Source of the DNA: Bacteroidia bacterium
GTDB lineage: Bacteria; Bacteroidota; Bacteroidia; B-17B0; Aurantibacillaceae
Assembly (NCBI GenBank): GCA_025362575.1
Contig: JANYIQ010000279.1
Location: forward strand, 1 to 64,000
DNA length: 64,000 nucleotides
Direction of reading: 5' to 3'
Below are positions 10,602 to 46,259 of this stretch, in pieces (the stretch's first letter is position 1; each line of letters opens with the position of its first letter). The notes below the pieces were generated by a model, which did not search any database, was not told the origin of the DNA, and saw only the letters and a list, made by a program, of their open reading frames with translations. The position numbers and the translations under genes are program-made.

Positions 10602-10952
10602 TTAAGCTGCTTTGTTTTCTTTTTTGGTTAAAAGGAGCAGTTCGCTGGCCACTACTTCGGTAATGTATTTTTTAGAACCAGACTTATCGGTGTAATGCCG
10701 GGTGCTTAATTTGCCATCAATGGCTACTTCGGTACCTTTTTGCAGAAGCTGTTGCGCTATGGCCGCTAATTTGCCCCATACTACAACATTGTGCCAGTGT
10801 GTCTCACTTATTTTCTCACCTTTTTTATTGGTGTAATACTCGGATGTGGCTACCGAAAAACGTGCTACTTTGTTTCCGCTCTCTAATGTTTTTACTTCTG
10901 GATTAGCTCCTAAATTTCCTACTAATTGTACGCGGTTTTTAATGGTCATCAT
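10602..10952 (-). CDS. ssb: single-stranded DNA-binding protein (copy 1)
   Basis: MMTIKNRVQLVGNLGANPEVKTLESGNKVARFSVATSEYY...WHNVVVWGKLA OB-fold SSB; start trimmed to the MMTIKNR start shared with copy 2. Confidence 0.93.
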   Translation of the reverse strand: MMTIKNRVQLVGNLGANPEVKTLESGNKVARFSVATSEYYTNKKGEKISETHWHNVVVWGKLAAIAQQLLQKGTEVAIDGKLSTRHYTDKSGSKKYITEVVASELLLLTKKENKAA

Positions 10953-11021
10953 GATTTTAATTTTTAACTGTTTATTTGTTTGTGGTTTAATGTTTATTTG
11001 TTTTGATTTTTTGTCATCCTG

Positions 11022-11037
11022 TCCCGACGCGTCGGGA
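11022..11037. repeat. palindromic module TCCCGACGCGTCGGGA (copy 1) inside TCATCCTG...TGTCGAAGGAT
   Basis: Perfect 16-bp palindrome read directly; related copies at 20514 and 34010. Confidence 0.85.
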
Positions 11038-11093
11038 TGTCGAAGGATAAAAAACCTGAATAGAGCCCGGCCCATGTTCAGGTGTTTTATTAT

Positions 11094-11435
11094 TTAGTTA
11101 GATTTTCTGTTTATTAATAAGAATTCATTAGCAACGATCTCGGTGATGTATTTTTTCACTCCGTCTTTATCTAAATAATCTCTGGTGTTGATCCTGCCAT
11201 CAATAACTACTTCAGTACCTTTTTGTAAAAGCTGCTCGGCTAACCCGGCTAATTTGCCCCACACAACTACATTATGCCATTGTGTTCCGGTTACCTTTTC
11301 ACCCTTTTTGTTCGTATAATACTCGTTGGTGGCTATCGCAAATTTTGCAAGTTTGTTCCCGCTCTCTAATGTTTTTACTTCCGGTGCCCCACCTAAATTG
11401 CCTATTAACTGTACGCGGTTCTTAATTGTCATCAT
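11094..11435 (-). CDS. ssb: single-stranded DNA-binding protein (copy 2, tandem paralog)
   Basis: MMTIKNRVQLIGNLGGAPEVKTLESGNKLAKFAIATNEYY; clearly paralogous to 10602..10952. Confidence 0.93.
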   Translation of the reverse strand: MMTIKNRVQLIGNLGGAPEVKTLESGNKLAKFAIATNEYYTNKKGEKVTGTQWHNVVVWGKLAGLAEQLLQKGTEVVIDGRINTRDYLDKDGVKKYITEIVANEFLLINRKSN

Positions 11436-16127: not shown

Positions 16128-16250
16128 AAATTTCACGCAGATGATCGCAGATGAATGCGCAGATTTCCGCAGAATAGAGACAAAACATATTAGCTGAGAA
16201 AGTCTATCCGCGAAGACCCGCCAGATCGGTCAAATCAGCGTTCCATTAAC
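16128..16250. repeat. degenerate CGCAGAT-unit interspersed repeat
   Basis: cacgcagatgatcgcagatgaatgcgcagatttccgcagaa...atccgcgaagacccgccagatcggtcaaatcagcg. Confidence 0.65.
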
Positions 16251-16799: not shown

Positions 16800-16894
16800 G
16801 AGTTTGCGTTAGGGATTGAGCCATTGTTTGAGCTCTTTTTGTCCCGAAGGGCAAAAAAGCGAGTGGCGAAAGCCCGGCCCGAAGGGCAACGCCC
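16800..16894 (-). repeat. dispersed GGGCGT...GGCTCAATC element, copy B (minus strand)
   Basis: Reverse complement GGGCGTTGCCCTTCGGGCCGGGCTTTCGCCACTCGCTTTTTTGCCCTTCGGGACAAAAAGAGCTCAAACAATGGCTCAATCCCTAACG aligns with 33964..34122. Confidence 0.85.
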
Positions 16895-20483: not shown

Positions 20484-20513
20484 GCTCTATGTCAGTTCGA
20501 GCGTGTCATCCTG

Positions 20514-20529
20514 TCCCGACGTGTCGGGA
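20514..20529. repeat. palindromic module TCCCGACGTGTCGGGA (copy 2) inside TGTCATCCTG...TGCCGAAGGA
   Basis: 7-bp stem TCCCGAC/GTCGGGA; same flanks as the 11022 copy. Confidence 0.85.
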
Positions 20530-20545
20530 TGCCGAAGGACGAGAA

Positions 20546-33963: not shown

Positions 33964-34122
33964 GGGCGTGTCCCTCGTTCCCTGCCTACCGGCAGGCAGG
34001 CTCGGGTTGTCACGACACGTCGTGATTCGCCACTCTCTTTTTTTGCTTAAGGAGGCAGAGCAAAAAAGAGCTCAAACTCCCGATAGCTATCAGTAGGCTC
34101 AATCTCTCACGAAGCCGCTCCC
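33964..34122 (+). repeat. dispersed GGGCGT...GGCTCAATC element, copy A (plus strand), with nested palindromes
   Basis: Aligns with 16800..16894 (minus); contains CCTGCCTACCGGCAGGCAGG (33981-34000), TCACGACACGTCGTGA (34010-34025), GATAGCTATC (34082-34091). Confidence 0.85.
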
Positions 34123-46229: not shown

Positions 46230-46259
46230 AAAGCCGTCACGACTGATCATGACGGCTTT
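46230..46259. terminator. intrinsic terminator
   Basis: AAAGCCGTCA-CGACTGATCA-TGACGGCTTT. Confidence 0.85.

Follow-up and report, generated by a model that had tools for sequence, protein, structure and literature searches.

Short palindromes in place of a few nucleotides: candidate very small mobile modules in a Bacteroidia genome

RESULTS

One palindrome in at least six dispersed repeats

How does one 16-bp palindrome come to lie inside several unrelated repeats of the same genome? The question is raised by a 64,000-nucleotide stretch of contig JANYIQ010000279.1 of a Bacteroidia bacterium (GenBank assembly GCA_025362575.1), which we refer to as the window. An earlier note had described three 16-bp sites in it as variants of one palindrome, and both this description and the coordinates were verified. 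The module, PAL1, is a perfect palindrome, TC(A/C)CGAC-NN-GTCG(T/G)GA; allowing up to two mismatches, it was seen four times in the window, against 0.22 expected by chance. The features of the window that matter here are the following.

11022-11037, no strand: PAL1 TCCCGACGCGTCGGGA in host E (11013-11046, minus strand; CCTTCGACA-PAL1-CAGGATGAC)
20514-20529, no strand: PAL1 TCCCGACGTGTCGGGA in host E (20505-20538, minus strand; CCTTCGGCA-PAL1-CAGGATGAC)
33964-34118 (end approximate), plus strand: host A copy (GGGCGTGTCCC...CTCAATCTCTCACG) with three palindromic modules
33981-34000, no strand: PAL3-type palindrome CCTGCCTACCGGCAGGCAGG in this host A copy, a clean insertion
34010-34025, no strand: PAL1 TCACGACACGTCGTGA in this host A copy, replacing GGCT (or CGCT) of empty copies
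34078-34095, no strand: decayed 18-bp PAL2 TCCCGATAGCTATCAGTA in this host A copy, replacing AAT (empty form, CAAAC-AAT-GGCTC)
16871-16874, minus strand: GGCT, the four nucleotides that PAL1 replaces, in an empty host A copy running down the minus strand from 16894
16131-16165 (end approximate), minus strand: empty host D copy, ATCTGCGA-TCAT-CTGCGTGAAA
62619-62648 (end approximate), plus strand: empty host C copy, CTCTGTGTTCTCCG-TGCC-TCCGTGGT

The earlier note had also proposed a search of the whole genome (4.32 Mb in 327 contigs, 98% complete). This search yielded 63 exact matches to the PAL1 pattern TCMCGACNNGTCGKGA, in many flank contexts and with many empty host sites, and none to the reversed control. 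Detailed work covered about 0.86 Mb of the assembly, in pieces, and there PAL1 and the core of a second palindrome, PAL2 (TCCCGATAGCTATCGGGA, 18 bp), were the most overrepresented perfect palindromes of 12 to 16 bp, with a Markov expectation of about zero. Rather than the two unrelated host repeats first assumed, the contexts printed genome-wide revealed at least six, listed here with the four nucleotides found in empty copies.

Host A: GGGCGTGCCCC..GGGTCG-PAL1-TTCGCCACTCGC, holding the site at 34010; GGCT or CGCT
Host B: REP-type hairpin GGTCGGTG-PAL1-GTGCTCCCGACC, flanking a RAYT gene on contig 57; AGCT
Host C: CTCTGTGTTCTCCG-PAL1-TCCGTGGTTAAC; TGCC, TGTC or TGTT
Host D: AATCTGCGA-PAL1-CTGCGTGAAA; mostly NNAT
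Host E: CCTTCGGCA-PAL1-CAGGATGAC, holding the sites at 11022 and 20514; AGCT or GGCT
Host H: ACTCGACA-PAL1-CACTAC, related to host E

Hosts A, C, D, and E (GGGCGTGCCC.., CTCTGTGTTCTC.., ATCTGCG.., and CTTCGACAAGCTCAGG..; in the window, for example, at 33964-34118, 62619, 16131, and 11013) are themselves dispersed elements.

PAL1 sits outside long open reading frames (ORFs) in 41 of 45 cases, in sequence of which ORFs make up 82%, and the copy at 20514-20529 has convergent ORFs on either side. The copy at 11022, one of the four exceptions, falls in the N-terminal stretch of a single-strand-binding protein (SSB) reading frame, ahead of the SSB domain, and may precede the true start codon. Around it, two tandem stretches (10611-10910, inside the SSB gene, and 11094-11393) share 71% identity, with host E between them, and probably represent a duplicated ssb gene. 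Apart from one tRNA, no known RNA family was found in the window.

PAL1 replaces four nucleotides

For the third site, a different host repeat and a homolog without any insert (16800-16894, minus strand) had been reported. The repeat is indeed a different one, but the homolog does not simply lack the module: with GGTTG-PAL1-TTCGCC in one copy and GGCCG-GGCT-TTCGCC in the other, four nucleotides have been replaced. Empty copies exist for the first two sites as well (CCTTCG(G/A)CA-AGCT/GGCT-CAGGATGAC). Across hosts A to E, anchored patterns, which strongly diverged copies escape, recovered 28 filled copies with the 16 bp and 36 empty ones, 35 of which have exactly 4 nucleotides at that point. 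Since empty copies carry 4 nucleotides where filled copies carry 16 bp, the PAL1 event is a substitution and not an insertion. Among 60 flank families, none had direct 4-bp repeats touching the module, as target duplication would predict, and on the basis of this flank comparison and the filled and empty counts, we ruled out plain insertion with target duplication. What stands of the original suggestion is that small palindromic modules enter, or are exchanged within, older repeats, in many contexts and with empty sites to compare; plain insertion does not.

Some copies may have traveled with their host repeat, so that independent events are fewer than copies. That modules spread only in this way, through recombination among the copies of a given host, would agree with the similarity of filled copies within a family and with the 7, 5, and 8 filled copies that anchored patterns detect in hosts C, D, and E, respectively. 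It would leave unexplained, however, why identical 16-bp sequences occur in unrelated hosts, in a tRNA relic, and in terminators, and why module variants coexist within a single host, and we consider this explanation very unlikely.

The remark that the host A copy (33964-34118) carries extra palindromes is borne out by a manual alignment with 11 further copies: CCTGCCTACCGGCAGGCAGG is missing from the other copies without any loss of bases, pointing to clean insertion, and GATAGCTATC belongs to the decayed 18-bp palindrome at 34078-34095. A 4-nucleotide rule for every module was rejected: with PAL2, 3 or 6 nucleotides may be lost instead, and PAL3 (CCTGCC..GGCAGG) inserts cleanly.

Module structure and insertion places

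Across 66 sites, positions 3 and 14 of PAL1 form an A-T pair in 53 cases, a C-G pair in 12, and a mismatch in 1, while the two central bases vary freely. Such coupled changes around a variable center fit a hairpin whose loop is free to vary, or else two module lineages; in filled hosts, a 6-bp hairpin with a 4-nucleotide loop is predicted. Conservation beyond the 16- to 18-bp unit was not found among the 60 flank families, nor was a strong target consensus, the one bias being the rarity of T (2 to 4%) at the position directly bordering the module. Complementary flanks of at least 5 bp were present in five of these families, and direct flank repeats of at least 5 bp likewise in five, against 0.7 expected for each.

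In Bacteroidetes bacterium UBA4416, the only other genome with multiple PAL1 copies (see below), 7 of the 19 copies sit on top of a stem, against 2.1 expected, and two of these stems are terminators. No such enrichment at hairpin tips was found in the source genome (3 of 47, against 3.4 expected), and hosts C and D are predicted to form no stable hairpin; a hairpin loop as universal target was therefore ruled out on these two counts. Hairpin tips and spacers between repeats are favored, though they are not the sole targets. Nor do the modules fall into the class of intrinsic terminators (a G+C stem followed by a T run), as only a few copies, such as those in L090 and L156, cap one. In the window, a sequence with two mismatches to PAL1 (46237-46252, TCACGACTGATCATGA) lies where a terminator-like hairpin (AAAAGCCG..CGGCTTT) has its loop region and is possibly a decayed PAL1 or a chance match.

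A symmetry maintained through coupled changes, the capping of terminators by some copies, and the position of most copies outside long ORFs could also be expected of a conserved binding site or regulatory hairpin, placed and kept by selection. Selection does not explain, however, why a whole sequence should replace 4 nucleotides in unrelated hosts, nor why two species hold the bulk of the copies and seven genomes of the same genus hold none, and we give this explanation little credence.

PAL1 is concentrated in two genomes

Among 60 relatives screened, UBA4416 (G026) was the sole other positive, with its 19 PAL1 copies; PAL1 was not found in seven genomes of the same genus, nor was it found in viral contigs. 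A search of 84,980 species genomes for the exact core, TCACGACGCGTCGTGA, yielded 48 stretches, of which about 15 come from UBA4416. The core is multicopy only there and in the source genome, the other stretches being scattered singles at chance level.

UBA4416 contains a relative of host E that is empty in one place (GTCACCCTG-AGCG-GAGTCGAAGGG) and filled elsewhere. It also contains a degenerate tRNA-Arg(TCT) gene in which AGCT of the D-loop has been exchanged for PAL1; the gene of its relatives is empty, and an intact second copy is located on contig C33. The relic itself (L148:1-120, contig C49), which ARAGORN missed, lies at a contig end. This last circumstance, together with the restriction of multicopy PAL1 to two draft assemblies, might raise the suspicion of an assembly or sequencing artifact. 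Against this, PAL2 behaves alike in a genome assembled as one contig and in viral contigs of many data sets, and the copies show natural coupled variation, leaving such an artifact next to no probability.

PAL2, a sister palindrome

PAL2 shares the arms of PAL1, TC(A/C)CGA...TCG(T/G)GA, and occupies the same positions in hosts D and E. Within the family, it is present in 79 copies in G022, 68 in G019, 55 in G011, 35 in G006, 21 in G084, and 15 in the source genome. Its distribution in the class is patchy, with 0 to 30 copies among species of a single genus, and it is absent from the genomes sampled from other classes of the phylum; such uneven counts are as expected for a mobile sequence. No description of the PAL2 sequence was found in the literature searched, which included few subscription papers, and an earlier one may exist.

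Filled and empty sites can again be compared. In related viral contigs (86 to 89% protein identity), an empty site, ATCTCA-AAT-CTCACATCT, has a filled counterpart, ATCTCA-PAL2-CTCACATCT, directly upstream of a conserved gene; in one viral contig, the module is nested in tandem TCTCA units. In the one-contig genome G084, a broken tRNA-Leu in tandem arrangement, GGTGG-AGA-PAL2-GGTAGAC, is found beside the intact GGTGG-TGG-AATT-GGTAGAC. The locus (L207:9070-9300) is a tandem duplication at tRNA-Leu(TAA), with the PAL2-bearing broken copy preceding the intact gene. Two tRNA-like remnants read TTCG-PAL2-CAGT, the lost nucleotides being, as we assume from the standard T-loop, AGTC or AATC. A large tRNA array in G019 (L225:8800-9700) includes broken tRNA genes, two of which are interrupted by PAL2.

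Three nucleotides are lost in host J of G084, in the viral pair, and in the window copy at 34078. Elsewhere, PAL2 replaces 4 nucleotides or, where viral contigs carry the CCCCTCTTGAGAG..GGGG repeat, 6, the latter figure being reckoned against the presumed empty form of that repeat. With losses of 3, 4, or 6 nucleotides, the fixed loss of 4 holds for PAL1 and not for PAL2.

Y1 transposases and RAYT genes

The earlier note had seen no transposase or RAYT gene. This is true of the window, but the genome as a whole contains eight Y1 transposase genes. Genes of the RAYT type (L041:1290-2012 and L042, on contigs C57 and C48, respectively) each have their own flanking REP-type hairpin, GGTCGGTGAGC TGT GCTCCCGACC and GGTCGGGGATC TGT GATCCCGACC, which is the classic RAYT-REP arrangement. 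These hairpins differ from PAL1, which sits within one REP copy: on contig 57, the host B hairpin upstream of the RAYT gene is filled with PAL1 and the downstream copy is empty.

One may suppose, then, that the genome encodes a Y1 (HuH) transposase or RAYT that mobilizes the palindromes in the manner of REP hairpins. The number of Y1 genes, the PAL1-carrying REP hairpin beside one of them, and a correlation between Y1 and palindrome counts over 120 genomes (rho of 0.45, uncorrected for kinship and genome size) speak for this. On the other hand, Y1 insertion of the known type leaves its target intact, and a GTAG/CGTC tag at the module edge was not found among the 60 flank families. Moreover, no Y1 match was found in G084 (21 PAL2 copies) or in G067 (35 copies of TCCCGA..TCGGGA), which weakens the case for RAYT as a necessary mobilizer. 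On balance we think this explanation unlikely; an enzyme of the Y1/RAYT kind is possible, but a strict need for it does not look to be given.

Proposed mechanism

Taken together, the same palindrome in unrelated hosts, the filled and empty copies, the loss of 4 nucleotides, the coupled arms, and the patchy lineages lead us to propose, from sequence comparison, that PAL1 and PAL2 are probably very small, noncoding mobile modules that spread by replacing a few nucleotides inside other sequences. In transit, the palindrome would be single-stranded DNA or RNA folded into a hairpin, which a trans-acting enzyme would join into a short, single-stranded gap or loop, the nucleotides replaced being lost; the insertion places would often be hairpin tips, spacers between short direct repeats, and tRNA loops. 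A hairpin intermediate and an enzyme that need not be of the Y1 kind are proposed because G084 and G067 are rich in palindromes and have no Y1 match. More tentatively, and with less than even confidence, we suggest a dedicated transposition-like process that swaps 4 nucleotides for the 16-bp palindrome, with a trans-acting enzyme and palindromes with TC(A/C)CGA arms as its substrates; such an element would spread by itself and would match or undercut in size every bacterial mobile element described.

Spread might instead occur at the RNA level, with PAL RNA hairpins invading RNA loops and a reverse transcriptase copying the product back into DNA, as has reportedly been suggested for cyanobacterial small dispersed repeats (SDRs). 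The tRNA loops, terminators, and hairpin repeats among the targets would suit such a route, as would a coupled stem with a free loop, but hosts C and D are no hairpins, and we judge it rather improbable.

If the modules are mobile, as we favor, they would rank with the smallest mobile DNAs known, and their form of insertion would be unlike that of standard transposons: nothing is duplicated, PAL1 costs a constant 4 nucleotides, and the targets share no strong consensus. They offer a tractable case for how very short palindromes spread. Filled and empty copies of the same site, PAL2 in a one-contig genome without a Y1 match, and a core whose bulk lies in two species make a search for the enzyme practical.

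Comparison with known small repeats

Cyanobacterial SDRs are hairpins of about 20 nucleotides with coupled changes, nested in other repeats or in tandem repeats, limited to certain lineages, and presumed to be mobile. By analogy, they appear to be the closest known system in behavior, and the modules may be called SDR-like: PAL1 is likewise a hairpin with compensatory changes, and nesting occurs both in dispersed repeats (hosts A to E and H) and in short tandem ones (TCTCA, in the viral contig). SDRs, reportedly the subject of Elhai et al. in 2008, belong to another phylum and have other sequences, whereas PAL1 is a perfect 16-bp palindrome that replaces 4 nucleotides. SDR5 is described as inserting exactly between two HIP1 nucleotides (PMC4390886). 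HIP1 itself resembles PAL1 as a perfect palindrome repeated within one lineage, but it is a cyanobacterial octamer of very high frequency (PMC4390886), and PAL1 is a 16-mer with 63 copies inside other repeats.

Like REPs and REPINs, PAL1 is a short palindromic hairpin outside genes, and some REPs also sit within other palindromes (PMC3733652, PMC3116915). The PAL modules differ in having no GTAG/CGTC tag unpaired at one end and in measuring 16 bp (PAL1) and 18 bp (PAL2) instead of 20 to 40 bp. The inverted doublets of REPINs are not seen either, there being four close pairs (C85, C153, C172, and C175) among the roughly 50 places listed. The PAL modules also occur mostly as single copies, and PAL1 sits within the REP of a RAYT and does not appear to be that REP. 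Miniature inverted-repeat elements (MITEs), at 70 to 300 bp, have terminal inverted repeats and usually duplicate their target; the PAL modules share with them a noncoding nature, palindromic ends, and dispersal, but not the length, the terminal inverted repeats, or the target duplication.

Rickettsia palindromic elements (RPEs) are about 100 bp or longer. They, too, are palindromic modules found inserted in genes for RNA as well as for protein (PMC3733652), and PAL2 likewise is read in frame (PDSYRE) in a few viral ORFs; RPEs are frequent in genes, however, while PAL1 avoids them and PAL2 lies in few ORFs. For the PAL2-bearing viral ORF of L233, no empty homologues were found. In-frame PAL2, read as PDSYR(E/D), was observed in ORFs predicted on viral contigs that are unrelated to one another (L233:3986, L232:4807, and L234:1848), and one of these copies probably precedes the true start.
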